A stretch of 64,000 bases of DNA from Gracilaria domingensis. Its lineage: Eukaryota > Rhodophyta > Florideophyceae > Gracilariales > Gracilariaceae. Made by a program: the position numbers and the translations under genes. Position 1 is the stretch's first letter, and each line of letters starts with the position of its first letter. The stretch spans positions 248,001-312,000 of the forward strand of contig VCMS01000069.1 in NCBI GenBank assembly GCA_022539475.1, given 5' to 3'. The notes under the pieces are model-generated. The model had not been told where the DNA came from, made no database searches, and worked only from the letters and a program-made list of their open reading frames with translations. Positions 10,872 to 45,323 of the stretch are shown here, in pieces.

Positions 10872-10905
10872 AATTTTGTTTAGATACCTGATTCTAAACA
10901 AAATT
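10872..10905. repeat. 13-bp perfect inverted repeat, 8-nt loop
   Basis: The left arm AATTTTGTTTAGA (10872-10884) is the exact reverse complement of the right arm (10893-10905). It lies in the SWIB/GatB divergent promoter and runs directly into a second palindrome. It could be a protein-binding dyad or a hairpin; the role is unknown. Confidence 0.75.
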
Positions 10906-17529: not shown

Positions 17530-17912
17530 GACTGACGGCGCGCATCACATCGCGGTGGCAGCCGGCGCGGGCGCCCCCGGCACGCGTTGGAACGTGAAAG
17601 GGGGAGCGGCACAGTAGCAGCCGGCGCGGGGGGAGAGGCGGCGCGGCTGGCGCTGGCCACGCGCACGTGGTGGCCACATGAGCCACGCAGAAAGCGCGGC
17701 GCATATGCGCGGCGCGCCGGCGTGGCGTGACGTGAAGGTGGGGGACCGGCGCGACTGCGACGTGTGGTGTAAAGTCAGAGTAGTAGACTCTGTATGCTAC
17801 CGGCAGCCACGTCACGTGCGGGCAGGGGTATGCCGGGGCACCGCAATTTGGAAACGCCGGCACTGGTGCACTGGCAGCCCGCGGCCTTACACCGTATGTA
17901 AGCCGGCAGCGC
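17530..17912. promoter_or_regulatory. Divergent promoter, ubiquitin-like gene (-) / YkgJ-like gene (+)
   Basis: A 380-bp GC-rich gap with frequent CGCG and CACGTGG-like motifs (CACGTG near 17667 and 17813). E-box/G-box type CACGTG sites are common regulatory elements in plants and algae. Use is inferred. Confidence 0.4.
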
Positions 17913-18590
17913 ATGAATAACAGACAACTTTCCGCGCGCTGCCGTGGCGCGCTCGGCGGCCGGCAACGCGCTGCTCGGCGCTTTCCGCCCGCCGTGCGCG
18001 TCGGCCGCCGTGCAGCAATCATGGCGCCAGCGGCTGCCGCAGTGCGCGCGCGCCGCGCAGCTTTCCACGCGCCGCTGCCGCGCTCCCGAGTGCGTGCCGC
18101 GCAACTCACCGCTAACGGCAACAGCTGCCAGCGCACGAACCGTCAAAGCTATTATACGCCGACGTCAACTGCAAAAGCTCAGCATCTTCCTGCGCCCGCG
18201 CCGTCAAGCGCGTGGAAGTGTATGAAGTTCTGCGGCGCTTGTTGTAAGCTGGGTGACTACGATGAGTCTGTTCTCACAGACCTGTTGAAAGACGAGCATG
18301 ACGTTGAGCTCTACTTGGGCATGATTGCGCCAGACGGCTGGTGTAAATGGTTTGATAGCTTCTCTCGGACGTGTACCATTTATGAAACGCGTCCTCGTTT
18401 CTGTCGGGTTACTCCGCAGCTGTTTCATGATCAATACGCCGTTCCCCCGCACGAGTTCGATGAATTTGCAACCTCCTGCTGTCAATATCACATTCAAAAC
18501 ACTTTTGGTGAGCAAAGCCCGGAAGCATCCCGTTTTCAAACCTTCGTCAATCCCTCTACTTCACAACAAAACCAGCAATATGAGGTTTAA
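17913..18590 (+). CDS. YkgJ-type CxxCxxCC (zinc/iron-chelating) protein with presequence
   Basis: The core holds the pattern FCGACCKL, then GWCKWFDSFSRTCTIYETRPRFCRV, then SCCQYHI, the Cys spacing of the YkgJ/UPF0153 family, small proteins thought to bind zinc or an iron-sulfur centre. The biochemical role of plant and algal members is not settled. The N-terminal 95 residues are very Arg/Ala-rich with no acids, as in a transit peptide; a second ATG at 18021 (MAPAAAAVRARR) is an equally good start. The gene converges on the methyltransferase, and the two coding sequences overlap by 35 bp at their 3' ends. Confidence 0.8.
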   Translation: MNNRQLSARCRGALGGRQRAARRFPPAVRVGRRAAIMAPAAAAVRARRAAFHAPLPRSRVRAAQLTANGNSCQRTNRQSYYTPTSTAKAQHLPAPAPSSAWKCMKFCGACCKLGDYDESVLTDLLKDEHDVELYLGMIAPDGWCKWFDSFSRTCTIYETRPRFCRVTPQLFHDQYAVPPHEFDEFATSCCQYHIQNTFGEQSPEASRFQTFVNPSTSQQNQQYEV

Positions 18591-19920: not shown

Positions 19921-21188
19921 CTAAGTTTGCTTCACCAGTTGAATTACGTCTTCATCCCACAACACATGTTCTTTCCCGCATTTCTGCGGATTGAACTTTG
20001 TGCTTTTGCCCCATACCAGAGCGAACTTAAGCTCATTTTCGAGCGTCTTGTGGATTCGGCGGCAGAAAGCCGCTACCGTTCGTTGTCGCTCATCATTCTT
20101 GAGGATCACTGGTTCCGCAAAGTCGACTACCGTTACACCCTTGGGCTTTGTGTAGATTCGAACAAGTCTGAGATCATCCCAAATGGCCTCCAAGAGACCA
20201 TCAATGTTCCACTCAAGTCCACCACTAATTGGTACGTATCGATCCATGCGATGATATAATTCTAGCTCCTCCATGCTAATCTTGTCGATCATGTTGACTA
20301 CGTATAAAGCGGGTACATATCTTCTATTTCCCTCAATGACATCAATGATTTCATCAATAGTGCTGTTATATGACAGAGATAGACAACAGAATATACGTCA
20401 GTGGTTCATTTGGAGCGTGGTGTGGAAAAAATAATTCATACGGTCGCCTCCCGAGAGCATCGAGAACGACTGAGGAACGTATTGCCTGATTGTAATCAGA
20501 CAGCAAGCATAACTTACCATTCTCCGCGTACGACGAAATCCGCATTGTGGATTCTGTACTCGGCACAAACACTCTTTATAGTCTCAAGATTGAGTTCAGT
20601 TTGAACCGCAGAGGAAAACGAAATTCCGCCACGATCTTTGCGCCTGAAAATAACGGGAGGGGGCTGTTTGTTGAGCCGAATTCCAAAGCCCTCAAGCTCC
20701 TTCTCGATAATGCGCTTGTGGCTGGCCGGCTTCGACGCGTCCAGGACAATAAGGATGAGATCGCACGATCGGGCGACAGCAATGACCTGGCGACCGCGTC
20801 CCTTTCCATCCTTGGCGCCCTCAATGATACCGGGAAGATCCAGCAACTGAATCTTTGCGCCGTTATAGTACAGCATGCCAGGAATGCATGTAAGCGTGGT
20901 AAACTCGTACGCCGCGGCCAAACTCTGCTGGTCGGTCAGAAGCGTGAGCAGCGATGACTTTCCAACAGAGGGAAATCCGATAAGACCGACACGTGCATCT
21001 CCGGTCTTTGGGACCTCAAAGCCTTCGCCGGCGCCGCCGCCGCCGCCCTTGGGTGGTGCAATAAGCTCTCGACGCAGCTTTGCCAGCTTTGCCTTGAGAA
21101 TCCCGAGATGTTGCGACGTGGCTTTGTTCTTCTGGGTACGGGCCATCTCGGCCTCAATCTCTTCGATCTTGGCGAGTGTAGACGCCAT
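19921..21188 (-). CDS. DRG1: DRG1-type developmentally regulated GTP-binding protein, 2 exons
   Basis: DRG proteins are translational GTPases that act on polysomes with a DFRP partner. Exon 1 is 21188-20518 and exon 2 is 20362-19921, joined over a 155-nt intron (GTAAGT...AACAG), giving 370 residues. Exon 1 has the N-terminal helices, the Gly-rich [12 protein letters not shown] segment, the Walker A motif GFPSVGKSS at 71-79 and LDLPGI. Exon 2 begins inside [21 protein letters not shown] and carries the NKID-equivalent position as NMID, then the C-terminal TGS domain ([10 protein letters not shown] ... [12 protein letters not shown]). The Asn-Met-Ile-Asp in place of NKID is noteworthy because the Lys normally packs on guanine. 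The frame upstream of 21188 is 5' leader. Confidence 0.93.
20363..20517 (-). other. Intron of DRG1
   Basis: Read on the minus strand: donor GTAAGTTATG after GGAGAATG and acceptor ATAACAG before CACTATTGATG. Joining gives the codon TGC and the family sequence [16 protein letters not shown]. Confidence 0.88.
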
Positions 21189-21876
21189 GTTGGTCAGTTG
21201 TGAGGGCGCGGAATCACGAGGGGCAACGAGAGAGAGAAGGGTGCAGAAGGCTGTAAGTAGGAGAAAATAGAGGGGAGAATAGAGAGGGGGAAGTGGTGTG
21301 GAGCGGGCGACGCGGGACACGAGGAGGGACTGGATCGCGCACGCTGTCAGGGCGTCGAGCTGTGGAGACGACGAGGCGTTGGGGGCGCGTCGATAGCCGG
21401 CGGGGGGGGGAGCGTTGGGGTGGGGGGCGGGGCGAGCGCTGTGGCGAGCATGGACACAACACGTCGAGCGGACAGCGCGGCGGGGCGCCACGCGGGCTGT
21501 GGAATTAGCGCAAAAAGCATCAAATGTGTGTACACAGTGTAGTAACAATAGGCTACGTGTTTGGGCGGCTGGATGCTCATCATGGTTTTGCGGTCAAGCT
21601 GACAAAGGGCCCGGCGGGCGGTAGAAAGACGGCGCGCGCTCTCTCCGCGTCTGCGACTTCGCACGCCGCGCCAACGGAAGCGAGCGGCAGCAAGGACCGG
21701 TTAGCCACGCGCGTGGCGCACTGACGTGGCGGCGGAAGCCGCGCGTGGCTCGCGCCGCGCGCGCTCCGAGGCGGCTACGGCGGGAGCAACGCGGAGGAAG
21801 AAGCACAGGCACAGGCACAAAACGCCGGCAAAACGGCTGCTTTACAGCTCAGCTACAGCGCACAACAAGCGAGGCG
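21189..21876. other. GC-rich intergenic region between DRG1 and CP12
   Basis: About 690 bp made of the DRG1 promoter (21189-21500, with purine/pyrimidine-biased GC runs) and the CP12 3' side. Many long open frames cross it on both strands; all are compositionally biased (Arg/Pro/Ala) and are not supported. Confidence 0.5.
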
Positions 21877-22391
21877 CTAATTGTCGTACACGCGACACTC
21901 GTCAGCCTCTGGCGAGTCCGCGCAGAATTCGTCCAGCGGGTCGGGGTTGCCCTTGGCCACCTTCATGTGCGAGGCCTCGGCCTCCAGCTCCTCGACCACG
22001 TCCCACGCGAGCGCGGCCTCCCTGGAGCCGCGGCCGTACTGCTTGGTGGCGGCCTCGGCCTTCTTGATCTCCTCCTGGATCTTGACCTGGATGGTTTCCA
22101 GGTTCATGAGCACGGACGCGCGGCGCGCGGGCGCGACGCGCAGCGACGCGCCGCGGAACGCGGAGCACTGCGGGTGGGGCGGGGGCAGGGAAGACGCGGT
22201 CAGAACTCTGGGTCGCAGAAACGCGCCGTCGCAGGAATCGCCGCAGCAGCAGCAGTAGTCGCAGCAGTAGCAGCAGTAGCCGCAGCAGTAGCAGCAGCGG
22301 CAGCAGTAGCAGCAGTAGCAGCGCAGCTTACCTTGGAGGCGGTGGGCGCGCGAGCGCGCGCCGCAAGCGACACAGACGAGACAAAAGCCAT
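21877..22391 (-). CDS. CP12: CP12 (GAPDH-PRK linker), N-terminal cysteine pair absent, 2 exons
   Basis: CP12 ties glyceraldehyde-3-phosphate dehydrogenase and phosphoribulokinase into an inactive complex in the dark in plastids. Exon 1 is 22391-22332 (start of the transit peptide) and exon 2 is 22167-21877, across a 164-nt intron (GTAAGC...CGCAG); the product is 116 residues. The second half has AWDVVEELEAEASH, the central CP12 signature, and ends DPLDEFCADSPEADECRVYDN-like, with the C-terminal redox pair at residues 102 and 111 (C-x8-C). The N-terminal Cys pair is replaced by a cysteine-free KAEAATKQYGRGSREAA. This is seen directly. Loss of that pair is reported in some algae; here it suggests redox control through the C-terminal (GAPDH-binding) loop only. 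Confidence 0.9.
22168..22331 (-). other. Intron of CP12 with a CTG/CTA-type triplet run
   Basis: Donor AAG|GTAAGC and acceptor CACCCGCAG, phase 0. About half of the intron (22243-22322) is an imperfect triplet array, CAG/TAG on the plus strand and CTG/CTA on the sense strand. Unspliced, it would read as a Cys/Tyr-rich stretch. Confidence 0.85.
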
Positions 22392-23036
22392 GGGAGCGGG
22401 GCGGCGGCGGCGGCGGGGGAGCACTCGGGCGATGCGAACGGGCGGCGCGGCGGCGGGTAGGCGCGGCGGGGCAGTGGCGGCTGCGGCAGATACGCGGTCG
22501 CGCCAGCGGCGCGCAGCGCCGCAGAGCCCTCGGCAAGATATGGCGCGGCGCGCGCGCACCACGGCTCGCGGCGCGTCGATCTCGCGCCGCGCGCAAAAAT
22601 CTCTGCCACGTCGCACACGCGGCGGCGCCCGTCGCGCGTGGCGCGGCGCGAGCGTGCGCGACACGCGCGCCGCGCTGGTGCCGCACAGTCCCACGCCCGC
22701 CAGCACGCGCCGCGTCTCCAACAAGCAAGCAGACGTCGCTGAGCTGCACTGCCCTCAACCCCCCCCCCCCCCCCGTCCCCCTCCCCTTCCTCCTCCGAGT
22801 CCCCCCGCTTTGCTATCATCCTCCCCCGCTCCCGTTGCGCTCCATCCCATCGGCTCCTCCCCGTCTTCCCCACCTCCCCCCTCCTGGATTACACTCAGAT
22901 GCTTCCGTTCTTTTCCTATAAAACCTCACCCGTCTGTATTCCCTCCCCCTGTTTGTCCGCCCCACCACCACATCCTCCACATCCACCGCTCCACCCTTCC
23001 CCACCCCTCCCACCCCGCTCCCCCTCCTCCTCAGCC
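22392..23036. promoter_or_regulatory. Divergent promoter, CP12 (-) / C2H2 protein (+), with C16 tract
   Basis: The CP12 half is very GC-rich. The C2H2 half (22740-23036) is almost pure pyrimidine on the plus strand, with a run of 16 C at 22759-22774. A TATA box (CTATAAAACC) lies at 22916-22925, about 115 bp before the ATG at 23037. Confidence 0.55.
22917..22923 (+). promoter_or_regulatory. TATA box of the C2H2 gene
   Basis: TATAAAA is an exact TATA consensus in an otherwise pyrimidine-rich region. Its distance to the ATG leaves a leader of roughly 80-90 nt. Confidence 0.6.
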
Positions 23037-26600: not shown

Positions 26601-27060
26601 AGATCGAGGCCACTCTCACAGCAGAAGGAAAACAACTTACAGTACCTTTAGTTGTTGTGAATGCCATAACAGTCATTTCGGGCGATTTCGGAGGGCTTCC
26701 GTCATACATAACAATACATACAGGAGGATCTCCCGGTGGAGATCCCGGATCTCCACCTTGTGGAATACGACAAAGGGACCAGGTCCTGCTCACCAGGACG
26801 GATGCGAGCATTGCTCGCATTATTGGACACCGCTTCCAAAAAAAGTTTATTGTTCATGAACACTACATGTCGTACAAATCTGCCTCAATGAAAGCTCTTG
26901 GAATTAGGATGGAGCGGGACGCTCCGCAACTAGTTCTCGTTAAACTAGTGTGCCCATATTTGATAGAGAGAGATGGAGCGCGCAGCTTGCGTCGTAGAGT
27001 TAGATGATACGGTTCAAAACTTTTAAAAGTGGTTAGTATGATGCGAAACACCGAGCCCTC
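23694..27060. other. 3.4-kb region without a secure gene; exon-like pieces on the minus strand
   Basis: I could not assemble a gene here. On the minus strand, several segments look like exons: 26452-26379 (acceptor CTCAG, donor GTAAGG, reading PQGYTTVEADKLFFIRSAGY), about 26005-25834 (a hydrophobic segment with FDWILTANWMLIFVNILAY, donor GTGAGT), about 25680-25446 (with FDLVTVLVLAEGLYFSLL, donor GTACGT), and frames at 24921-24563 and 24309-24043. The two hydrophobic pieces recall S1 and S3 of voltage-gated channels, but intron phases do not all agree, so a decayed or intron-rich membrane-protein gene is only a possibility. A CT tract lies at about 25190-25222. Confidence 0.25.
26735..26757. 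repeat. 11-bp perfect palindrome with 1-base centre
   Basis: GGTGGAGATCC faces its exact complement around one C. It is the first of a group of short perfect dyads: 26783-26799 (6-bp arms), 26802-26820 (8-bp arms, 3-nt loop), 26911-26925 (6-bp arms, 3-nt loop) and AACTAGTT at 26928-26935. Confidence 0.7.
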
Positions 27061-31770: not shown

Positions 31771-32086
31771 TGTGGCGAAGAAGGTGGCGAAGAGCGGATG
31801 TGCGGGAGAAGCAGAGGGGGAGAAGGAAAGACGGATAGGGCTGGAGCGAGAAAGCTGAGGATGGTACAACGGTATGACATACAGGTGAAGAAGTTTTACA
31901 AAGATAAGCTTCGACGGCGTTGAGGCGGTTGGTTGAATCAGAAGCAGCGCACCAGGAAGTGAGCACAAACGCCAAGCGCAAGGCAGAGAGACGACTAAAA
32001 ACTACATGATACACACGCACTCAGCCGGCGCTCGGGCAAGGACCGAATGAAACGAAAGCAAGTGAAACGAAAGCAGGCGACGGGAC
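31771..32086. other. HORMA gene upstream region
   Basis: About 315 bp between the inferred HORMA ATG and the end of the next minus-strand gene. The frame stays open on the minus strand from 31968 but begins with TTG, so I read it as leader. No TATA box is evident. Confidence 0.4.
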
Positions 32087-32338
32087 TCATCGACGACGCT
32101 GCTGCGTGCGCATGGCGCGCAGCTTGGATACGTGCTGCTGTCGTCGACGCACCAACTTGGCCAGATCGGAGACATACGCGGCGTTCTGCGAGGCGCGGCG
32201 GTTCAGCTCCGCGGCCTTGGAACGGCTGGGAATGTTATGCGAGCCGTATCTCATGGTGTAGCGCGTGGGGGCTGCAAACGACGCGGAGAGAAGAAGAGTG
32301 AGCGACAAGACGCACAGAAGCGCGGCGCGAAAGAGCAT
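32087..32338 (-). CDS. Small basic secreted protein, unknown function
   Basis: From the ATG at 32338 the product is 83 residues. Residues 1-22 (MLFRAALLCVLSLTLLLSAS...) form a clear signal peptide with a likely cut after SFA. The remaining 60 residues are strongly basic (SRSKAAELNRRASQN, KLVRRRQQHVSKLRAMRTQQRRR) and probably helical. I do not recognise a family. It could be an apoplastic or vesicle-lumen peptide, or an amphipathic antimicrobial-like peptide; none of this is shown. The open frame continues upstream as a Pro/Ala-rich leader without good signals. Base composition at its 5' side matches the neighbouring CpG island. Confidence 0.5.
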   Translation of the reverse strand: MLFRAALLCVLSLTLLLSASFAAPTRYTMRYGSHNIPSRSKAAELNRRASQNAAYVSDLAKLVRRRQQHVSKLRAMRTQQRRR

Positions 32339-33542
32339 GTTGGGTTGCTGCGCGGCGGAAGCGGGGCGGCGAAGAAGGGCGGCAGCGAGCGCGGAGGCAA
32401 AACGGTGAACGGAGGTGAACGGCGGGCGGTGTGGCAGCACACACGGGAGACGCAGCTTATAACGCACGAGCGCCGCCGCGAACACGTCGAGTTGGCGCAG
32501 GGCTCCGCTTGGGGGGCGAGGCGCGGCGCGCAGCGGCTGGCCTTGTATCTAGATATCACGTGGAGAAACACAAGTGGCGCGCGGCGCGACGCGCTTTGTG
32601 TTCGGCCCCGTGGCAAAAAGCGTGCGCTGGCTGGCGCTGTCGGCGACGTGGCCAGCTGTGCGCGCTGCCCCTGCTGGCGCGCGCCCACTTGCGGGCAACA
32701 AGCGGCGCGTGGACGTGTAGCCGAAACGGGCGCTGGCGGGGCGGCGCTGGCGGGGCGGCGCGCGCGCGTAAGGATAGCCGTTTTGCTGGCGGCGGCGCGC
32801 GGCGCGGGAGCGGAGACGAGGTGTCGACGGCGGTTTGGCGCGCCCGAATCGGCCGCCGCCGCGCGCGCTGCGTCGCGTTGAGAGCGCAGAAACGGGCGGC
32901 CGCGCGCGCCATGGCGCGTCGCGCGCGGCGCGAAAAATAGATGTGCGCCATAGCTATGAATTGCTCATCAAACAGCGCTTGATTTTAAGCAGTTCTCACT
33001 GAGCACCACACCATCATCGCGATGGTTCGCAATCATTGCGCCGCGCGCGCGGATCATAGATATCATATCATACGGGACGCGCGGCGCTGCGCCGCCGCGG
33101 CGCCGCGGCGCGTCTGAATTGTGCGCGCGGCGCTTCGGCGGGAAAGCGCGGCTGGCGCGCGAGATTCGCGACGCGCCCGCCGCCACGTGTCCAGGGCGCG
33201 CGCAGCTGCTGCAGCGCGGCCGCTGCGGCGCGCGCGGCCGCTGCGGCGCAGCAGCGATGACTTGTACCAAGGGTAGCGGCACGTGTGACTTGCCTCTCAA
33301 GAGCATCGGCGCGCGCGCGCGCGCGCGCGCGCACACGTGCCGACGAGTCGCGCGCGCGCGCCGCCCCGCGGTGGCGCCCGTTCAGGCGGGCGCTCGGCAA
33401 TCTGCCGCGGCTGCTTTTATCGGCGCGCGCGTGGTGCTCTCCCACCGCGCGCCCGCCCGCCCGCGCGTCCGTTATCGCGTCGCCGCCGCGCTCCGCCTTC
33501 GTGCCCGCGCCCTGCCCGCGCCCTGCCCGCGCCGCCGCCGCC
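32339..33542. promoter_or_regulatory. Large CpG-rich divergent promoter island, with (GC)12
   Basis: 1.2 kb of extreme GC/CpG content between the secreted-peptide gene (-) and the coiled-coil gene (+). A perfect (GC)12 run lies at 33309-33332. Long open frames cross it in many phases, all Arg/Ala-rich composition artefacts. A CGCG-free AT patch lies at 32940-33070. Confidence 0.5.
33309..33332. repeat. (GC)12 dinucleotide run
   Basis: 24 bases of alternating G and C, which favours left-handed Z-DNA under negative supercoiling. A second run of the same length lies at 36321-36344 in another promoter island. Confidence 0.9.
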
Positions 33543-34808
33543 ATGAGGGCTGCTTCGCAACGCCATCGCCAGTCGAGCGCCAGCGCCGACGTGCGCCGTT
33601 CGCGCCGCCTCTTCTCGCGCCCCGCGCACGCGCGCTCAGCCTCGGCGCGCGCCACGCCGCTGCACGCCACCATGGCGCCGCCGCCGCCGCCCACCCGCCG
33701 CCGCTTTCTCTCCCGCTCCACCTCGCATCGGCCCCAGCGCCGCGTCTTCCCGCGCCTGTCGCAGCCGCGCCGCCCCGAGTCGCCCGCCGGGTCGCCGCAG
33801 CAGCTGCTGTTCGAGCCCAACACCAGCGATATCTCCGATTCCGCCAGCAACGACGCCGCGCCGTCGTCCTCGCACACCGATCTCGTCTTCATCGACGACG
33901 TGCCCCACGTCAAGTTCTGCAACGTCGGCGAGGAGGAGGAGCCGCTCATCCCCGATTCCTCCGCGCCCTACATCCCCAGCTCCCCGCCAACATCCACCAC
34001 CACCTCCTCCTCCTCCTCCTCGTCCGCCGCACTCTCGCAGCAAAACGATCTCCTCAAGCGTGAAAACCAGGCCTTGCAGACGAAGAACGAGGCGTTGCAG
34101 GCCGAATTGGAAGCCGTTCGATCCAAATCAACCGCCATGGCTGCCGAGCTTTCCGCTCTAACGCGCCAGTTCAACGACGTGCGCTCAAAGCTTTCGCGAA
34201 AGGTGCGCCATCTGGAGGCGGAACTCACGTCCATAAACTCCAGCAGCACCGCCACGTCGACGCAACCATCTCGCTCTTCGCGCCCGCGCGTCGTGAATGC
34301 AGCCGCGCCGCCACACGAGCCACAACCGTTGGCGCCGTCATCTTCATCGCGTGCGTTTGCACGGGTGCAGAGTCTGGGCAGTGTGTCAGAGTCAACCCGT
34401 CGTCGCTCCATAAGACCGGTTACATTACCCATGGCTCACTCGTCGTCGGGAGGACCAGCGCCGGTTCGACGACCATTTGAAAATGTTTCCGATACGAATG
34501 TGGCATCGCCAGCGTCACGTGCGAGGCAAAGTCTGATTCGACGCGCTTTTGTGGCGCACATTCATGCGCATAGATATCGCGCAGCTCGACAGGCATGGCT
34601 CCAATTCTTGGGAGCGGAGCGTCAGCAGGTTACGTTGGTGACGTTCTCGGCGTGTGTGCGCCAATTGGCGGTAGCTTCAGAGGCGAGTGATCGCGAATTG
34701 CAGTTACTGATGCAGGAGATCTGTGAGGTTGGTGTCGGCCCGCATACAGTTATGACATGGAATATGTTTAGCCGCTTTTACAACAGCACCAAGAACGAGT
34801 CTACCTGA
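33543..34808 (+). CDS. Coiled-coil protein of unknown function
   Basis: From the ATG at 33543 the product is 421 residues; an alternative ATG at 33672 removes a basic N-terminus. The N-terminal third is Pro/Ser/Arg-rich and disordered. A clear coiled coil with heptads (QQNDLLKRENQALQTKNEAL and onwards, to RHLEAEL) spans about 165-235. A Ser-rich linker follows. The last 100 residues form a conserved-looking helical domain with RRAFVAHIHAHRYRAARQAW, which resembles an IQ-type calmodulin-binding helix, and end in TWNMFSRFYN. I recognise no family. It is head-to-head with the secreted-peptide gene and tail-to-tail with the membrane-protein gene. Confidence 0.65.
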   Translation: MRAASQRHRQSSASADVRRSRRLFSRPAHARSASARATPLHATMAPPPPPTRRRFLSRSTSHRPQRRVFPRLSQPRRPESPAGSPQQLLFEPNTSDISDSASNDAAPSSSHTDLVFIDDVPHVKFCNVGEEEEPLIPDSSAPYIPSSPPTSTTTSSSSSSSAALSQQNDLLKRENQALQTKNEALQAELEAVRSKSTAMAAELSALTRQFNDVRSKLSRKVRHLEAELTSINSSSTATSTQPSRSSRPRVVNAAAPPHEPQPLAPSSSSRAFARVQSLGSVSESTRRRSIRPVTLPMAHSSSGGPAPVRRPFENVSDTNVASPASRARQSLIRRAFVAHIHAHRYRAARQAWLQFLGAERQQVTLVTFSACVRQLAVASEASDRELQLLMQEICEVGVGPHTVMTWNMFSRFYNSTKNEST

Positions 34809-35089
34809 GAATAGAGCGTGTGGTTTTGACGTGTACATAGACGTTCATGTATGGAAGATAGACAGATTATGTAAGGTTAGCTTTCTCGTAGCTTTCCCGT
34901 AGCGCTCTGTTTTCGTTTAGTGGCTTATCTTTATTAGTGTTTTGTAAAACGAGGAAACAAACGTCTGTTCTGTTTTAAAAGTTTTAAAGCTTGTTGCCAA
35001 TGGCAAGAATTGAGTTAGAAAGAAACGGTCAACAGGATGTGCATGACATAACACGCGTAGTAACTTGCTACTAGTAAGCGTGAGGCGTA

Positions 35090-36007
35090 TCAACGGTAGA
35101 ATCTGGTGTGATTTTCAATGTGTAACGATTGCTCCCAGCGATGCTGCAACGGTTGCAGCTGCTGCTCGCAGTTGTGCACCTCGTTCTTGAGCATGAGAAT
35201 GTCATTCTGCAGGTCAGCGATGCTGTTGGCAGCATCTTGAAGCTGCTCCATTAGCTCCTGAACGTCGTCCAGACATTGCTGCTTTTCGTCACTCGTCGGC
35301 GCCTCCTTTGCTTTTTGCTTTTGCTCGTTCAACGAGCGTTTCAACTCATCGACGCTCGTCCGCGTTTGCTGCAGTTTCTTGTTCTTGGTCTCCAGCGTTC
35401 GCGACGTCAAAATCTTGCGCTTGGAAACAGTGACCATCTCCTGCATGATAGAATCCAGCACAGACGCGCGTCGATTAACAGCCATGGTGTGCGCCTGCGC
35501 GGCGACAGAATTCCTGCGAAACGGCGCCAGAAACGAGTCGGCGTGGGCGGTCCACCACGGACGAATGACGCGCTCGTTGAGCATGGCCAGCGCGACCCAC
35601 AGGCTCAAAATGGCGTAAATCCTCCACACGCCCGACAGCCAGGTCGCGCCCGGTCGCCGATGACCCGTAAACAACTCGATAAGCAGCGCCCAAAAGCTGG
35701 GCAGCAGGCAGGCGGCCGTCCACGCCAGCGCGGCGACGACAAGCAGCGCGCGCGGCACGGCTCTCCACGCCTGTGTGCGGCACAGGTAGGGCAGCCACGG
35801 CAGCACCAGCAGGGTGCCCACAAGCTGCACGGAGGAGGGCGCGGCGCCGAAACGGGCGGTTTGAAAGGCGGCCAGCGCGACGGCGTCGGCCACGACGGCG
35901 GCGGAGGCGAGCGCCTGCGTGGGGACTGCGGAGAAGCGCGTGCGCGGCGGCGGCGGCGGCGGCGTGGCGGGCGCGGGCGCCGCGGGCGACTTGGGCTGCT
36001 CGGTCAT
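35090..36007 (-). CDS. Membrane protein with four transmembrane segments and a C-terminal coiled coil
   Basis: The ATG at 36007 gives 305 residues. Residues 1-28 are Pro/Ala-rich. Hydrophobic segments lie at about 29-48, 57-75, 85-113 and 125-145. After RRASVLDSIMQEMVTVSKRK the last 110 residues are a long helix with heptads (KNKKLQQTRTSVDELKRSLN, QCLDDVQELMEQLQDAANS). The layout, a compact membrane domain with a soluble coiled coil, recalls tethers or membrane-shaping proteins, but I do not recognise the family. The frame is open upstream to 36295 through an Arg/Ala-rich CpG island that I read as promoter. Confidence 0.65.
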   Translation of the reverse strand: MTEQPKSPAAPAPATPPPPPPRTRFSAVPTQALASAAVVADAVALAAFQTARFGAAPSSVQLVGTLLVLPWLPYLCRTQAWRAVPRALLVVAALAWTAACLLPSFWALLIELFTGHRRPGATWLSGVWRIYAILSLWVALAMLNERVIRPWWTAHADSFLAPFRRNSVAAQAHTMAVNRRASVLDSIMQEMVTVSKRKILTSRTLETKNKKLQQTRTSVDELKRSLNEQKQKAKEAPTSDEKQQCLDDVQELMEQLQDAANSIADLQNDILMLKNEVHNCEQQLQPLQHRWEQSLHIENHTRFYR

Positions 36008-36487
36008 GGCGGCGGTGGACGGCGACGCGACGTGCGGCGCGCGGCGAGCTGGCGGCGAGCTGGCGGCGAGCTGGCGGCGCGCAATGGCGGCGCGCAATGG
36101 CGGCGCGTCAGATGCGCGCGCGCGAGCCAAAAGAGGTTGCCGCTGGGCGATGGCGCGACGTGGCGCGGCGCGGCGGAGCAACGCGCGCGCGCGGCGTCGG
36201 CGACGTGGACACGCGGCACAGCGGCCTCGGCGCGCGTCGGCGCGCGCGGCGCGCGATGCGCGCGCAGCGCGACGCGCCGAGCGCGCTGTGGCCAACGGAC
36301 ATGATGTGGCGCCATTGGCAGCGCGCGCGCGCGCGCGCGCGCGCAGGCGCGCCTTGACAGAGACAAGCAGAGAATCAACGTGCCGCGGCGGCGGGTGGGG
36401 AAAGACTGTTTTACGCCTTCTCGAACAACGACACTCTCTCTTCTACAGAATCTCTCAAAAACAAAAAGGGGGGGGGCCAAGCGGCGC
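36008..36487. promoter_or_regulatory. CpG island upstream of the membrane-protein gene, with (GC)12
   Basis: The first 350 bp are extremely GC-rich, with short tandem GGCGAGCTGGC-type repeats at about 36048-36100 and a perfect (GC)12 at 36321-36344. The last 100 bp belong to the 3' side of the GLTP gene and include a G10 run. Confidence 0.5.
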
Positions 36488-37210
36488 TCATGCGCGCGCG
36501 TCCTCGATCTGCTCGATCTCGAACAGCGTCTGCAGCGCGCTGATGTGCGGGCGCACGGCGCGCAGGAAGTGCTTCATGCCCACCTCGCACAGCGCCACGT
36601 CCTGCTCGCTGGCGGCGCGCTCGCCGCCGCACAGGTTGGAGATGAACTGGCTTCTGGGCGGCACCAGCTGCAGCGCGCGCTCGAAGATGGCCTTTGTCAC
36701 GTTGGGGTGTCGCAGTGCCAGCGTATTGCGATACGCCTTGATGCACGCGTCCTTGAGCTCCATGCTCTCGTCCTCCACCATGTGTTGTACAAGCTGCTCA
36801 ATAAAGTTCAAAATCCTCTGGCACCACAGCAGGCACTCGATGCCGGACGGCGCCCAAAAGCGGGGCGGCGACTTGAGTTCGTTGCCCACCAGCTGGCGGA
36901 GCGTGCTGGCCCTCAGCCGGCGCGCCGAGTTGCGCAGCCCGTTTGTCTTGCCGCGAAAGTCGCGGCGCACTATCTCGGTGATGATGGGCGACCCCAGCGC
37001 GTCAAAGATGGTGAGAAAGCCGCACACGGCGCTATTGAACAGCTCCACGTTGATGTCGCCCTTGGCCGCGCACAGGTTGCGGCGGTCCGCATCGTGGATG
37101 GCGTGCGAGAACGGCTGCGTGATGGCGGAGAACGGCGTGTGGATGGCGTCGCTGTCGACGGTGATGGTGGTGCTGCTGGGCGACTTGCGCTGCGCCATGT
37201 GGCTGCCCAT
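36488..37210 (-). CDS. GLTP-domain lipid transfer protein
   Basis: The 240-residue protein has the all-helical glycolipid-transfer fold from about residue 55 to 215. Matching marks are FLTIFDALG, IVRRDFRGKTNGLRN, SGIECLLWCQRILNFIEQL, KAYRNTLALRHPNVTKAIFERAL and LVPPRSQFISNL, including the conserved His of the headgroup site in ALRHP. GLTP-family members carry sphingolipids between membranes in the cytosol. The headgroup site reads D-x3-K (DFRGK) and not D-x3-N, which is the pattern of the ceramide-1-phosphate branch (CPTP/ACD11), although the Trp of LLW is as in GLTP; so the headgroup is uncertain. ATG at 37210 or four codons later. Confidence 0.8.
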   Translation of the reverse strand: MGSHMAQRKSPSSTTITVDSDAIHTPFSAITQPFSHAIHDADRRNLCAAKGDINVELFNSAVCGFLTIFDALGSPIITEIVRRDFRGKTNGLRNSARRLRASTLRQLVGNELKSPPRFWAPSGIECLLWCQRILNFIEQLVQHMVEDESMELKDACIKAYRNTLALRHPNVTKAIFERALQLVPPRSQFISNLCGGERAASEQDVALCEVGMKHFLRAVRPHISALQTLFEIEQIEDARA

Positions 37211-37934
37211 GGTCGTGCGCTCGTCGCAGGCGGCAACCGAACTCTCGCAGGCGCGCGCGCTCTCTCACACGCACGGGCGCAGCGAACAAACGGCGGCGCA
37301 CGAGGGCGAAAATCGGCCCGCGACACGGAGGCGGCGCGCGCGCTGCTTTATCTACGCGCGCTGCAAAGGGGCGCGAAGGCGGCGCGCAGGTGAGCACGCA
37401 GCGCGTGCGCGCGCCGCGCCGCTTGACATGCGCCATCACAGCCTTCGCAATGGACGGGCGCGGCTGTATGTACGTGCGTCCAATCAAAACGCGCTTACAC
37501 TATGCTTTGCTGCCGCCGCTGGACACTCCGTTTATTATTAATCTCTGATTAATAAATACTGTGCATGATGAGGAGAGGGGAAAGATGCAAAACATTCCCG
37601 CCGTCTTTTGTCACCATCACTTCTCATTGAGAAGTTCTCAACAAGCAAGTGGTGCTTCACACGGTGTGAAACACCAGTGGCAGTGAAGCTTGTGGGGCCT
37701 CGTTCTTCAAACGCACAAGCGAACGCACGGCTTCTGAAATCTTCATCTTCAATGAATCATCATGCATGATGCGCCGCCGCTCAGCACAAATGCCCGGAAA
37801 ACTTCAAATAAAAATCTTCTACTGTACAGGGGGGGGTACGCGCATGGAAATGCATTTCTTTACATCCTATCTGGCAGTGGATCCGGTCCCTCTGTCGTCG
37901 ACGCGGCGACGGCGGCGAGCACCAGCGCGCCCCC
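37211..37934. promoter_or_regulatory. Divergent promoter, GLTP gene (-) / RPC7-like gene (+)
   Basis: The first 260 bp are CpG-rich; 37500-37800 is AT-richer and has the inverted TTAATCTCTGATTAA at about 37540-37554. The plus-strand frame at 37762-37934 is treated as leader. Confidence 0.45.
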
Positions 37935-38687
37935 ATGGCTCCGCGACGCGGCCGCGGCCGCGGCAAAATGCGCGCTCGCCCGCCGCAAGTCATTCGCAAC
38001 AGCATTGCGGAGCTGTCCAACTACGACGCCGCTGTCAAGGCCGCGCTTCAAAACAACCTCGACGCCGCGCGCGCCTACTTCCCGCCACTTGCCAAGCGCG
38101 TCTGCGCGCCGGCCGCCCCGCCCCTGCCGTCGGAAATCAAGCTGCTTCAGGAGCACGCCTCCTTCAGAGACACCATGTTGAACTCGCCCGCTGCCATACA
38201 TCTGCCGGCTGTCTCCACCCAAACCCCGCTCAGAACGCAGTTGCAGTCGGTTGCCGACTTCTTTCGCACGCCGGCGGCGAGCGCCGTGCAGCGAACGGCG
38301 CCTGACTTGCTGTGGCGTTGGGACGCTTGCTGGATCGTGCCGGATGTTTTGCCGCCCGAACTGTTACCTGCTTCGTTGAGAAACTGCGCGCGCCCGAGGA
38401 AGAAGGCGAGGACTGAAGTGCGCGAACAACAAACCGACTTGACGTCGCAACAGATGCTGGACAACTTTCGACTTCAGGAGGCGGACAATGCGGCTAATGA
38501 ACCGGATGCCAATCAGCCCGCTGATGACGAGCAACAGGAGCTGGAGCCTGGCGCCGTTGAACAGCAGGATGACGATGAGGACGTTGATCACATTGCCGAT
38601 TATCAAACTGGCGTCCACTTTGACGATGATGATGGCTATGAGGAAGTTGAAAGTGGCGATGATGCCGAACCTATCGTTGCATTTTAA
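37935..38687 (+). CDS. Probable RNA polymerase III subunit RPC7/Rpc31
   Basis: The 250-residue protein has the layout of RPC7/Rpc31: a short RG-rich start (MAPRRGRGRGKM), a Pro/Phe-containing middle (YFPPLAKR, EIKLLQEHASFRDTML, WRWDACWIVPDVLPPELLP) and a long acidic tail of Glu/Asp/Gln ending with DDDDGYEEVESGDD. In Pol III, RPC7 joins RPC3 and RPC6 in the initiation subcomplex. The match rests on layout and short patches, since the family diverges fast. Its stop codon TAA ends at 38687, and the next base begins the stop codon of the facing ORP gene. Confidence 0.6.
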   Translation: MAPRRGRGRGKMRARPPQVIRNSIAELSNYDAAVKAALQNNLDAARAYFPPLAKRVCAPAAPPLPSEIKLLQEHASFRDTMLNSPAAIHLPAVSTQTPLRTQLQSVADFFRTPAASAVQRTAPDLLWRWDACWIVPDVLPPELLPASLRNCARPRKKARTEVREQQTDLTSQQMLDNFRLQEADNAANEPDANQPADDEQQELEPGAVEQQDDDEDVDHIADYQTGVHFDDDDGYEEVESGDDAEPIVAF

Positions 38688-40208
38688 TCAACTCCTCCCA
38701 AGTGATACCGGCATAAACTTCTTTTCTACGCTAACATTCTGCTCTCTGTCGTTGTCGTTAACGTTTTCACCATTGCACTCGTCAACTTGTTTTTTTCCGT
38801 TCTCAAAGTTCGGGCCTGCCTCGTTTTCTGTTTGGGGCTCTTCATCGCCTGCCTCGTCCTCCTCCAAAACGCCTTCTTTTCTAAACTTTCTATCCTGTCG
38901 CTGAATGTTTTCCAACTTCTCCTTCAGTATCTGAGCCTCGCCGGTGATGGCATCTCTGGTTCCCACATCATTGCTTTCATCTAACGCGCGTCTCAAAGCG
39001 ATGACGTCCTCTCTATACCGACAATCACTAGCAAGCGCCTGCGACATATCGCCGCCACCCACCGAGCCTTTTTCTGTTTCACGAATATCCCACCAACGTT
39101 CGCCATCAATATCGAAATAACCGACGAATGTACCGCGTGCCACGGACAAAATTTCGCGCTCTACTTCACCCGCTTGAGTGCGTAGGATTTGTGTCCCTGT
39201 CGCCGCTCCACCTCGCGCCTGTGTGACGCTTGTTACCGATTGTGTCATTTCTGCATCGCTTCGGAGTTCGATGGCTGTATAACCACCATCTCGAGCTTCT
39301 TCAAGTGCTTTGTCAGGATTGCCGAAAAATGAGCCTTCCTGTTTTCCGAAAGCTCCTGTAAAAGTTACGGTGCCTTCTTCCTTTTTCGTTTCTGAGATTC
39401 GGTAGAGAACACCATCCAAGTAGTCAGAAGGGGTTCCTACACTAAACGGAGACCAACGCATGGGCTGTGGTGGATTCACCAGCAAATCGAAAACAAGCCC
39501 GTGCTCTTCGTACATGATTGAAAACGGGCCTGAAAACTCGCACTTGAGTTCACTTAAAAGCGCACGCAACAGCATTGTGGGAAATGTGTAAACGATTCGG
39601 CTGCCATCAGCAAACTCGACCACGTTGATACCTATTCTTCGTGAAGAAAGCGCTGTGTCTAAACCCCATACAACTCCCCCATGAACGCCGCTGAAGCCTG
39701 CCAGAAGGTAACTCTTGTTCTCCGGACGAATTGTGTAGTGTGTCACTGGCGGATGATGACTGGTTTGTTCAATGTAACACGGGCTTCCGTCGCCTAGAGT
39801 TGCTTGATAGGTACTGCCAAGAATGGGATTGAACGGCTTGGCCAGCGTGTCGATACAGTGCAATCCAGATACCACAAAGGCAGCTACGAGTTTGATGCGT
39901 TGCACTGGATCTGTTGTCGCAGCGGCCGCGTTTAAGTACAACGGAGCATATGCCCAATCATCCGTAATACGCTCAAGAACACTTCTCGGTTCATTCATAT
40001 GTACAGGCATTGACATTCCAGAGAAGGTCATGTTTCCTTGCAATACCTGTGTTCCCACACGTTGTAGCACGTACTGTACACTTCGACGAATCATATCGCC
40101 TTCCTTCGGGTCGTTGAAAAGCATCCCGCCCGTCGTGGATGCTGTTTCAATGCGGTAGTCATCTGTCTTTTCCAACGGTTTGAAAGAGGAGATGGTAGGA
40201 CCTGACAT
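38688..40208 (-). CDS. Oxysterol-binding-protein-related protein (ORP), short form
   Basis: ORPs move sterols or phosphoinositides between membranes at contact sites. The 506-residue protein is an ORD with no PH domain. It shows AKPFNPILGSTY at about 123-134 and the family signature EQTSHHPPV at 147-155, whose two His bind the phosphoinositide phosphates. The lipid-binding core runs to about residue 300. The segment WWDIRETEKGS followed by SDCRYREDVIALRRALDE is the usual ORD end, and the last 100 residues are Glu-rich and coiled. No FFAT motif is obvious. ATG at 40208 is the first in frame. It converges on the RPC7-like gene with no gap between stop codons. Confidence 0.92.
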   Translation of the reverse strand: MSGPTISSFKPLEKTDDYRIETASTTGGMLFNDPKEGDMIRRSVQYVLQRVGTQVLQGNMTFSGMSMPVHMNEPRSVLERITDDWAYAPLYLNAAAATTDPVQRIKLVAAFVVSGLHCIDTLAKPFNPILGSTYQATLGDGSPCYIEQTSHHPPVTHYTIRPENKSYLLAGFSGVHGGVVWGLDTALSSRRIGINVVEFADGSRIVYTFPTMLLRALLSELKCEFSGPFSIMYEEHGLVFDLLVNPPQPMRWSPFSVGTPSDYLDGVLYRISETKKEEGTVTFTGAFGKQEGSFFGNPDKALEEARDGGYTAIELRSDAEMTQSVTSVTQARGGAATGTQILRTQAGEVEREILSVARGTFVGYFDIDGERWWDIRETEKGSVGGGDMSQALASDCRYREDVIALRRALDESNDVGTRDAITGEAQILKEKLENIQRQDRKFRKEGVLEEDEAGDEEPQTENEAGPNFENGKKQVDECNGENVNDNDREQNVSVEKKFMPVSLGRS

Positions 40209-41306
40209 CGGATGCGGTGGAACGGGCGTCTTGGCGGCAGTAGTGAGCGCGTTGGTTTGGGAGAGATGACCGTGAGTTGCCCTTGAACTGCGGGTTGAGT
40301 GCGCTTGGGTAGAGGTTGGCAGCTTTATGTGGTGGCATTTTTTTGCGGGGCGAATGCCGGATGTTGATGATAACTTGGGGGACCCGACGAAGATTCTGGC
40401 TTCGGAAGATGGCTGTCTTGTCAGGGCAAGCTGGCCACTGAGGTCGCATCACACGTACGCGGGTATCTACGTGGACACGGTGAAAGCACTTGCCCATCAT
40501 TTGGCCTTGTTGAACACTTCGATGTCCAGCACCACAGGGATAACGGTATCTGTGACTTTCCTTATAGCCCTCAAGGCACCACTTTCTTGAACTCGATGAA
40601 TGTAAAACTACGAAGGTGCGACGACTTTGTCTTACTCTTGTATTTAAAATACTTCTTTCCATAGGAATTCCAAAAAGTTAAATTCTTGGTCTCCATGGAA
40701 GACCTGTGAGTCAAAAGTAATTGGTTAATGTATTTGCTTTGGACCCGCAAGAAGTTGAGTTACGGGTGTCCATTTGTGTTCTGTATATTAGAACGTGATG
40801 GTCCCATTGAGCATTCTCCGGGTGAGTTTGGTGGAACAACTGAGTAAAATGCTGCATCGCACATTGTGAAAACTTGGAACCGGCGTAAGCTGGAGAAAGA
40901 ATATGTAAACCTTTTAACAAACGAGATATGAAGGCCCATATGAAAACCAACAACGTTGACCGCGTACTTTTGCCCTTCGTTGACTTTTGATGAGTGCTCT
41001 CTTTAGTCTTGATAACAAAAGGCGCTTCTATACAGAGTGCCAGCGCAATATGTTTATAGGGGTAAATTAGTATTGCAAACCGCATACGTTGCTCTCATGA
41101 AACAGAACCAATGATCATATGTAGCTTTATAAAGGCTTTTAGGTGACGAGTCGCTCAGAAATTCTTCGTACATACTTGTACTTTACAATTCCACTAAACA
41201 TGTATTATGCTCTTTGCTACAGGCTATATAGTTGTTTCTTTGGAAATACACCAAACTATTGAGTAAAGCTTTTTCTCTAAAACAAGCAGGAACCATTTGA
41301 AATGCC

Positions 41307-41321
41307 GGGCATTGAATGCCC
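41307..41321. repeat. 7-bp palindrome, first of the cluster
   Basis: GGGCATT and AATGCCC flank a single G. It lies 15 bp before the long palindrome at 41336. Confidence 0.7.
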
Positions 41322-41335
41322 AATTGGAGACTAGA

Positions 41336-41407
41336 TTGGCATCTACCTTCGGTATGTCTCTTATGATTCCGGGGAATCAGAAGAGACATACCGAAGGTAT
41401 ATGCCAA
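41336..41407. repeat. 35-bp inverted repeat, 33 of 35 paired, 2-nt loop
   Basis: The centre is at 41371-41372 (GG). Arms 41336-41370 and 41373-41407 pair except at 41343/41400 and 41363/41380. It contains the perfect 18-bp block at 41345-41362 with its complement at 41381-41398. As RNA it would fold into one long hairpin on either strand. Confidence 0.9.
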
Positions 41408-41439
41408 CAATATCTGGGGAATCTTCCCCAGATATTGTT
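41406..41439. repeat. 16-bp perfect inverted repeat, 2-nt loop
   Basis: Arms 41406-41421 and 41424-41439 are exact complements around TC. The repeat overlaps the end of the previous hairpin by two bases, so the two are back to back. Confidence 0.9.
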
Positions 41440-41505
41440 TTTCCTCTTCATATGGTTCTCAAAGAACACCTTGAAGCATCAAGATCGGCACTAAAGGGAT
41501 CCTGT

Positions 41506-41550
41506 CTATCAACGATAGGCCATCATAATATGATGGCCTATCGTTGATAG
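41506..41550. repeat. 21-bp perfect inverted repeat, 3-nt loop
   Basis: Arms 41506-41526 and 41530-41550 pair exactly around AAT. A further degenerate copy of CCATATTATGG type follows at 41551-41561. Confidence 0.9.
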
Positions 41551-43118
41551 CCATATTATGGTGATGGGCCTTCACCCGCAAAACATTTGAAAGAATTGCG
41601 AAGAATGAAGTCCTGTATCTTGTTCTTTTTCATGCTCCCGCAAACATCTTAAATTGATGCAAAACTCTCTCTGAAGAATATTTTTGTTCTGCCAATGTGC
41701 TAAATACATGTTCTAGAATTGGCTAGTCTAACCCTGTAAATATAGATCTTGGTGTTCGACTAACAGGAGAAGAAGTTTCAAGGCTGAAAGAATCTTCAAA
41801 AATCCGGTCTTTAAAATGTAATGTGTTCTTGTTGTCGGAAGCTGAGAATTAGACGTGATAGAAAGGTACCAGCATCTATTTTGCCATACTGATCTGTTTC
41901 CAGGAGTTTCTTACCAGATAAGAAAGACTTTCTGGTTTTTTGGCGCCGTCTTATATAATTTTTGACAATAATGAAAGAACAAAAGAAGTTACTGTGATGC
42001 GGTTTTTAACGTCAGGACATTTCGCAAAAACTCATTTTCGAAAAGCATAAGTTGTATATCAAATCGTGTGCTTCGGGTCGAACTCAAATTTACCATTGAT
42101 GAGGCTCGCCGAGATGCTCATATCTATGACGTAACTTATTTTCTTCTCTTCTTATTTCTCTTGAGTACACTAAATAGTGTGTATATTCATCCAAAAAAGC
42201 ACTCTTTTTTTCATGTTCATTTGAGATGAAGGAAAAAATGTAGAGTGAGATCAAATGTACTTGCGATGGTATATACAGTTTGCAAAGCTTTAACTTTTTT
42301 CGAGATAAGATATGCTTAGGCCTTATTGACTATAAGGAATTAGTTTCTAACAGGATTTCCTGAGTAACATCTTCTACTACCAGTTTTATGGCAGTATCAA
42401 ATTTGTTATAAGCTGTTTTCTTATCTGTATCTCATTCACTACTTTGCTCCATGCTCTTTATTCCAAAAGTAAGAGAAAGAACTATGTAGATTTAGTTCTC
42501 CCTTTTCAAGATGGTTCAGCGTTGGGAGCAATTTGCCTGTTTCCTTTGCAAAAGCCACTTTAGGATTGAATGAAACCAAGCAATGGTTCAAACGTGAGAA
42601 CGATAACTATTTGTCATTGCTCAGTGAGCCACAAAGAACTTTGAAGACTATTTCAATGCGACTGAATGAGTGCGAAACTGAGAATTCCATATCAGATATC
42701 TTGTGTGGCAGCATCTCGTGGTTACATTTTTAATCCCGCCAAAAAAAACTGTATTTTGTACTTGCTGCTCTTCGAACCCAATTCTTCCCTACTCTGGAGC
42801 GAGCGACAGGGAAGTTATGGTTGGCGGTTCGAACTTGTAATCGCTGTGGTCCTTCATTATACCCATAGATGAAATTAGATGGGTGAGAATCTTACCGGTT
42901 GAAGCTAGAAGGCACCATCATCGCTGAGAATAACGCCAAATAATCCCTGTTTTTGAAGGAGATCCATTATCTGGAGAATACTTTGCGGGTGCTGATCGCT
43001 GCCACCGCTACTCGCAGAACTTTACAATTGAAGAAAGCAAAAACGTTTCTTTACTCTCCTACTTCACATAGATTGTGTCTCTTCCGCGAAGTACTTGCAA
43101 AGAGAAAACGAATTAATC

Positions 43119-45323
43119 ATGTCTCAGATCTCTCGAAGGAGATTATCGACCTTGGTTTTGCATACGTGGAGAACTTCGAGTGTTCTATTACGACAAGGAT
43201 GCCAGCCGTCTAAATTCCTTCACGAGCAACCGTTTTCAAGAAGATTTGCGATGGCTGCCGTACGAGAAGCGAGTGAAGGATCAGGTAGACGAGCACGAGC
43301 CAAAGGTGACATGAAATCTAGCAAAAAAGCACGACATCCTCAACGCGATCCTGAATGGAGAAAACAACAGTATGCGCAAAGGAGACCATCACCATCCAAG
43401 AGGAAACCACAGGTTGCTCCTATTCGGGAAGTGGTACTTCCTGAAATTGGACTAAGTTCACAACAATTGGCTGCATTAGCTGAGTATTCAGAGGAAGATG
43501 TGTTCAAAGTTGCGAAAGACCTGGATGATTCCATTTACACACCGAGGTCCGTGCTTACCCCGGCGTTGATAGAGCTTGTTACAGAGGAGCTAAAGCTCAG
43601 AATATGTTTCAAACCCCAAACAGAACGTCTGGTTTCTTCAATAGAACCAGATGTTGTGGGCAAGGGTGATGTCGACCTCAGGGCACCCATCATAACTGTG
43701 ATGGGCCACGTTGACCACGGAAAGACCTCTCTTCTTGATGCTCTCAGGCACAGCGACGTTGCAAAACGAGAAGCTGGTGGCATAACCCAATGCGTTGCCG
43801 CATTTCAAGTACCTTTGTCGCAAGGAGAAAATGGTACTGAGGGTTCCTTTGCAACATTTATCGACACACCCGGACATGCGGCTTTCAAGGCAATGCGCGC
43901 AAACGGAACGGTAGTGACCGACATTGTGGTTTTAGTAGTTGCGGCTGATGACGGAGTAATGCCTCAAACCATAGAAGCGGCGAATCTAGCTCGCCAAGCG
44001 AATGTCCCGATTATCGTCGCGGTCAACAAGTGCGATGTTCTTGGTTCAGATCCGGAGCGTGTCAGATATCAACTGTTAGACCGGCTTGGGATCAACACCG
44101 AACAGCTCGGTGGGGATGTGCAATGCGTGGACATCTCCGCTAAGACAGGGGAGAATCTACCACAACTACTCGATGCTATTTCGCTCCAGGCCGACATGTC
44201 AGACCTTCGCACAAGTCGACACGCCCCAGGTGCGGGAATCTGTTTGGAATCACGCTTAGACCGTGCGTTCGGTTCAGTGGCAACGGTAGTGGTACGCAGT
44301 GGCACGCTGCGAGTCGGCGATATTGCTGTGTTTCAGTCGCCGAAAGTTCTAAGAGGTGAGTTGTACGGTCGCGTTCGGAGCATTATTGCGAGCGATTCGA
44401 CAGCACTGGAGGAAGCAGTGCCTGGTATGACTGTCGGTGTTATCGGCATCAAGGCAGCTATACCACCGGGAGCCGAAGTACATGTTGTGCCCAATGAGAA
44501 GATTGCGAAAGCTAAATCGCATGATATGATTCACCAAAACATTGCAGCAGCTTCAACAATAGAGCTGGCGAACTCATTGCTGCACAAACGGGAGGAAGAA
44601 CTGGCTTTAATACGGGAAAAAGAATTGTCGCAATCGGAAGCTTCTGAAGGAGACGAACAACTTGATGCTCATGATGAAAAACAAACGCTTCTTGTTCTCG
44701 TGAAAGGTGAAGTTCAGGGAAGTGCGGACGCCGTGGCACAATGCATTCAATCGTTGGAGACAGCCGACTTGAACGTACGTATCCTCAGCGTTGGTGTCGG
44801 AGATATCAACGACATGGACCTCAAAATCATTTCGGCCGGCAAGCAAGTGAAAGGGAGCGCAGACGAACCACTCATCGTTGCGTTCAATGTGAAAGCAAAG
44901 CACTCAGCCGAAAAAATGGCGAAACGATTTGCAATCCCAATCTTGTCTCATTCTTTGATCTACCACCTAGAAGATGATGTGAAGAATCGAATACATGAGC
45001 TGGTGTCCGCGAAGAAGGTTGTGGAAGAAATCACGGGTACTGCCTCTGTAGTACGTGTGTTTGAAGACGGGGCGATTGCGGGATGCTGCGTAGATGAAGG
45101 TTCCCTTGCTCAAAACGATAAGGTCAGGGTGATGCGACTGCCATCTATGGACTCGGATCAACGCACGCGGGAAGAAGTATTCAGCGGGCCGGTGGAATCT
45201 ATTAAGCGATTCGCCAAGGCTGTTCGTTCAGTTGAAAAGGGGACCGAATGTGGGGTGAGTGTCAACGGGTGGTCAAGTTTCGAAGCAGGAGACGTGATAG
45301 AAGTGATTACCGAAAAAACGTGA
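43119..45323 (+). CDS. IF2: Organellar translation initiation factor IF-2
   Basis: IF-2 brings initiator fMet-tRNA to bacterial-type ribosomes. The GTPase is intact: G1 GHVDHGKT at about 196-203, G3 DTPGH at 249-253, G4 NKCD at 303-306 and SAKTGEN (G5). Domains II, III and IV follow to the C-terminus, ending in the C2 domain [10 protein letters not shown]. The long Lys/Glu N-terminal region of bacteria is missing, leaving about 140 residues with one VAKDLD-type IF2-N piece. The frame opens at a TTG, but the ATG at 43119 begins [20 protein letters not shown], an amphipathic basic presequence that suggests mitochondria; an ATG after it (MAAVREAS) could also be used. 734 residues, no intron. It ends 64 bp from the facing F-box gene. 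Confidence 0.93.

Follow-up and report, generated by a model that had tools for sequence, protein, structure and literature searches.

Long palindromes do not normally last in a genome: they are unstable, and hairpin nucleases cut them. Among the systems described so far, template-switch or quasi-palindrome mutation (PMC8604942, PMC8794818, PMC3820800) comes closest to the sequences reported here, and the available portions of those papers describe near-perfect adjacent inverted copies, homogenisation of arms, inversion of spacers and independence from any sequence family, the first of these being seen in the window and spacer inversion in one repeat family. What differs is that we are dealing with standing palindromes with long arms, 12 of them in 264 kb of a red-algal nucleus, and that these are known without an ancestral sequence for each event. 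A second point of comparison is a cross-genome survey of perfect inverted repeats (PMC13155455), the accessible text of which gives a eukaryotic mean of 1.91 bp/kb, with kingdom means up to 4.8, describes the eukaryotic repeats as mostly AT-rich and without a spacer, and does not mention red algae. Many perfect inverted repeats within one genome are likewise described, in the part of the report at hand, for the mitochondrial genes of Nematomorpha (PMC6649704), but those palindromes lie inside mitochondrial coding sequence, whereas the red-algal ones belong to the nucleus and for the most part lie outside long frames. Among the matches listed from the open-licence PMC literature there was no report of palindromes in red-algal nuclear genomes.

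The window, i.e. the whole stretch of 64,000 nucleotides that was analysed, corresponds to C69:248001-312000 of the Gracilaria domingensis assembly (77,892,253 bases in 680 contigs), in which 10 of 12 phycobilisome-family matches fall on contig C680, as expected of a red-algal plastid genome. The initial annotation had pointed to four dyads in an AT-rich gap, and all four are present, at 41307-41321, 41336-41407, 41406-41439 and 41506-41550, in DNA that is indeed AT-rich (38.1% GC at 41001-43000 versus 50.9% for the window). The leftmost is a small palindrome with 7-nt arms and a 1-nt loop, unremarkable alone; its neighbour has 35-nt arms with two mismatches (C41343/T41400 and A41363/G41380) around a 2-nt loop; and the third is a perfect palindrome with 16-nt arms and a 2-nt loop. 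The arm lengths given for these three were correct, while the arm given as 21 nt was counted as 22 and forms the perfect core of a longer palindrome at 41503..41553, with 25-nt arms, a single T/C mismatch and a 1-nt loop. The second and third dyads had also been described as abutting; they overlap by 2 bases. At 41550..41567 the centre of the last palindrome recurs once more in degenerate form (72% direct, 78% inverted), which is weak alone. All three long palindromes of the window are contained in 41336-41553, and their arms are 94-100% matched, with single-base differences, no indels and, among the mismatches, no G-U type departures on either strand. A core common to two of the palindromes (10 of 11 bases) was considered and rejected, as by our estimate chance gives such a core about half the time.

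The cluster sits in a 38%-GC gap, 5' of both of its Pfam-recognised neighbours, an oxysterol-binding protein ORF on the minus strand (38688..40208; PF01237, E 1e-30) and a translation initiation factor IF-2 ORF on the plus strand (43095..45323; PF00009 and PF11987). Between these two there are also minus-strand ORFs of 167 aa (40159-40662) and 124 aa (40711-41085), both without a Pfam match. Elsewhere in the window, GC islands of 60-75% occur at 17001-18000, 21001-23000, 32001-34000 and 35001-38000, and a further inverted repeat, with 13-nt arms and an 8-nt loop, is found at 10872-10905 between divergent SWIB and GatB ORFs.

Chance does not explain the three long palindromes. Their dyad scores are 27, 22 and 16. 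Among 2000 strings of 255 bases simulated with the local composition, no dyad with a loop of at most 3 scored above 11, a value reached twice, and ten Markov copies of the window reached a score of 10 or more only five times, the score being 10 each time. The statement that random DNA should hold almost nothing of this length is therefore sound for these three dyads and fails for the 7-nt dyad taken alone, since an arm scoring at least 7 turned up in 156 of the 2000 strings. The fold energy of 41290-41570 is likewise extreme (z = -13.4; 0 of 200 shuffles equally low). In the cluster region there was no Rfam match at the gathering threshold and the tRNA scan found none; promoter and terminator scans gave nothing above shuffle level, the palindrome at 41406..41439 being terminator-like on the plus strand in a stretch where 2 terminator-like sites were found versus 1.7 expected from shuffles. 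Nested hairpins inside the window arms were not significant (P 0.29, 1.0 and 0.06); for the whole set of palindromes, the best stems summed to 69 versus 50.6 in shuffled arms, an excess due to L009, L010 and L012.

Palindromes with very short loops are also found well beyond this cluster. Our sample consisted of the window and 20 further 10-kb segments (18 on other contigs and 2 flanking the window), 264 kb altogether, and we counted inverted repeats scoring at least 12, excluding those of low complexity, a filter that removed two tight GC repeats, both from the window, and none from the remaining 200 kb. Twelve inverted repeats had loops of 0-2 nt, three of them in the window and nine in the other 200 kb, while a Markov-2 control of three copies (792 kb) contained none with loop 0-2 and one with loop 3. 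The sole real-DNA control, 50 kb of E. coli, had one tight repeat (loop 1, score 12), so that a low rate occurs elsewhere too. Two of the nine tight repeats outside the window are copies of one multi-copy repeat (L009) and one is in another (L024); one (L010) is in a region with many repeat matches, two (L013 and L014) are in regions that match only themselves, and the remaining three are divided between L005 (one) and L006 (two). Stop-to-stop frames of at least 150 aa, taken from both strands, cover 66.6% of the sample, and of the 19 palindromes with loops up to 14 nt, 17 are found in the roughly 88 kb that these frames leave. The presence of similar palindromes elsewhere in the genome points away from a special locus and towards a mutational process that acts generally. 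With the window included, the palindromes are also clustered, with 6 pairs within 400 bp versus 0.83 expected (P 0.0006), half of which rests on the window cluster; with the window excluded there were 3 pairs versus 0.60 (P 0.023), and with the palindromes additionally confined to the non-ORF third, 3 versus 1.74 (P 0.24), so that clustering outside the window is not established by the random sample. As for position, six palindrome loci have a non-transposon Pfam neighbour, and five of them, namely two in the window together with L006, L013 and L014, sit 5' of one gene or more; this counts L013, whose Pfam match is below the cut-off, and excludes L015, which is beside a reverse-transcriptase ORF.

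Measured by the definition in the accessible text of the cross-genome survey (arms of at least 10, spacer of at most 8; PMC13155455), perfect repeats amount to 3.61 bp/kb of the sample, or 3.32 without low-complexity repeats, and they share with the surveyed repeats a mostly intergenic location and a similar total density. They depart from what that text describes in their mean arm GC of 0.52, with 1 of 30 below 0.2, and in their spacer, for which 1 nt is the commonest length (11 of 26). The density falls within the kingdom means but arm GC and spacer differ, and thus the amount of palindromic DNA is ordinary and its type looks different.

Some other palindromes deserve description in their own right. 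A second cluster, at L029:642-916 (C25:796642-796916), matches only itself and contains a 47-nt unit present three times, in two orientations, at 91%; it was chosen through a short arm match and stands outside the random sample. The palindrome at L041:80-255 has arms of 79 nt, perfectly matched, around a loop of 18 nt, and the multi-copy repeat L009 has a 74-nt perfect palindrome (L009:1071-1144 and 1557-1652), several copies of which are paired about 497-499 bp apart.

The initial annotation had proposed that copies of the arms be sought elsewhere in the genome, and this was done on the assembly. The cluster is single copy: its 371-base stretch and the surrounding 2.8 kb match only themselves (E <= 0.001, whole assembly), by a type of DNA search that may overlook words of high frequency in the genome. 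When up to 3 mismatches were allowed, a pattern search of the assembly for the 22-nt arm hit nothing besides the two arms of that palindrome (control 0). A 20-nt motif of the 35-nt arm, again with up to 3 mismatches, was found at 26 places versus 8 for the reversed control, of which 2 are the arms themselves, 17 belong to a tandem array on C181 and 7 are dispersed, the last being no more than chance would give (7 versus 8) and hence discarded as relatives of the arm. Four of the dispersed places were inspected; one is beside the L029 cluster, and another, in L026, has an imperfect palindrome no more than 100 bp away. The piece of the 35-nt arm found near L029 is 17 nt long and lies about 100 bp before that cluster. 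Judging by how the pattern hits are spaced, the tandem array (G000:C181:76838-85212) repeats about every 502 bp.

Signs of the process by which such palindromes change were found in the family of repeats related to L010, whose members are 75-93% identical. The hairpin of this family is single in L034, L053 and L055 and double in L010, L033 and L035, and L032 carries an additional partial copy. Its spacer, moreover, occurs in both orientations, as GGAAG in L010a and as CTTCC in L010b and L051a, a feature of this family and not of the window cluster. Template switching between inverted repeats has been reported to cause arm homogenisation and spacer inversion, as described in the excerpts available (PMC8604942; PMC8794818), and the changes in unit number and the two spacer orientations are as such switching would produce. 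The arms also co-vary to some extent. In an alignment of 15 hairpins, 14 of them distinct, 8 cells were changed on both sides of a pair versus 3.0 (sd 1.2) when shuffled, and the covariation score was 0.112 versus 0.054, with 0 of 500 shuffles as high in either case. The stricter two measures, pairs and pair types, are those rarely inflated by relatedness alone, and neither rose above the shuffles: they gave 3 pairs changed on both sides versus 1.9 (32 of 500 shuffles as high) and 4 further pair types versus 4.8 (494 of 500 as high). One cell was G-U. Several of the both-side changes, common to the more divergent copies, may represent a single event, and co-variation in this family would also follow from selection, such as might act on a transposase site. 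The first L010 palindrome (682-724), whose right arm seemingly replaces family sequence, was not counted because family homology ends there, and the L010 region as it occurs on C444 was dropped as a witness of change because it resembles an unpolished duplicate. This contig, L031 (G000:C444), appears to duplicate part of C12 with many indels, and the assembly may accordingly hold unpolished redundant contigs.

By analogy with the known mutational process, and by elimination, the most plausible origin of the window cluster is local template switching, repeated over time in intergenic DNA free of constraint, a reading to which we would give close to an even chance. At a short inverted repeat, the growing strand would anneal either to itself or to the opposite strand, copy backwards for 15-40 bases and then return, leaving a near-perfect reverse-complement copy beside the original. 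Once a hairpin existed, the event could recur at the same spot, adding neighbours and re-matching the arms, and the scars would persist in the intergenic DNA of a red alga, where selection against them would be slight. The cluster does have the near-perfect arms and very short spacers by which a template-switch palindrome is recognised, and it would presumably owe its origin to replication rather than to repair synthesis. In yeast, template-switch events are tied to high transcription in the available part of one report (PMC3820800), and we infer that such a link would suit the gene-flanking positions of the palindromes.

It could instead be argued that 41303-41583 was acquired by insertion, as a single element. 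In that view it would be a transposon end, divergent or orphan, whose palindromes are subterminal, and a 9-nt target-site duplication would lie on either side of it. The direct repeat CATTTGAAA, identical at 9 of 9 positions on the plus strand, does flank the cluster at 41294..41302 and 41584..41592, with P 0.003 from local control spans, 0.012 from simulation and 0 of 107 real spans as good; but this was one of 14 spans tested, which corrects the value to about 0.04, and among the other 13 a low P was obtained only for L029:671-707 (0.040), from tandem copies. Repeats of this genome do bear hairpins, as in the L010 family and in the ACATGGAAGAG hairpin, present at 28 places (control 0). This latter hairpin, ACATGGAAGAG..CTCTTCCATGT, was met in L038-L043, in L015 and at the 28 places in G000, and some copies adjoin TTAACCCTTGTCG or a near form of it, an arrangement that we take to recall piggyBac-type ends with TTAA targets. 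Against insertion, the assembly yielded no second copy of the cluster, and no inverted repeat (ungapped, at least 9 nt) joins the ends of 41303-41583. What the cluster has in common with MITE and foldback elements is thus the fold-back structure, while a second copy and terminal inverted repeats were not found and the target duplication is only suggestive, so the earlier idea of a miniature foldback element array is not supported. Because the 9-nt repeat brackets the cluster, insertion keeps some standing, and we consider it unlikely rather than negligible.

The hairpins may otherwise have been kept by selection, either as protein-binding palindromes in an upstream region common to two genes or as a hairpin RNA feeding a small-RNA pathway. 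The fold is very stable, the cluster and most of the neighbouring-gene loci counted above have the 5' position that such a role would call for, and microRNAs have been reported in red macroalgae, in the part of the source available (PMC12026948). However, the sixth locus, at 26735-26757 (score 11), has its APH-domain ORF upstream, the palindrome being on the 3' side, and so few loci do not allow a test; the loops of 1-2 nt do argue against a canonical miRNA, as the initial annotation had recognised; the arms are unique, and so closely matched that G-U type departures are lacking; and no Rfam family was recognised. The suggestion of a structured non-coding RNA, also from the initial annotation, has nothing beyond the fold in its favour, and selection for either role seems quite improbable to us. 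A fold-back chimera of sequencing or assembly is more improbable by far. The assembly does look partly unpolished, with C444 aligning to C12 at 85% and with 135 of 1374 positions gapped, but the window arms differ at single bases and not by indels, and palindromes of the same kind recur in independent copies, that of L009 (74 nt) in 40 scored places of 147 candidates and that of L024 in all 40 places scored out of 630 candidates.

Local template switching, our preferred reading of the cluster, is a mechanism already known, and the interesting part is its apparent frequency in a red-algal nucleus. A broader proposal, possible but doubtful at present, would be that fold-back template switching is unusually active or unusually tolerated in this nucleus, for example through weak hairpin cleavage, and that its non-coding DNA thereby goes on gaining palindromes that are not AT-rich and have very short spacers, palindromes that transposons then spread. 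For annotation, the finding is a warning not to take every such cluster for a foldback element or for an RNA with a function. A nucleus in which many long palindromes persist would be a natural system in which to follow both the origin of palindromes and their escape from repair, and it would supply raw material for new hairpin RNAs and for transposon ends.
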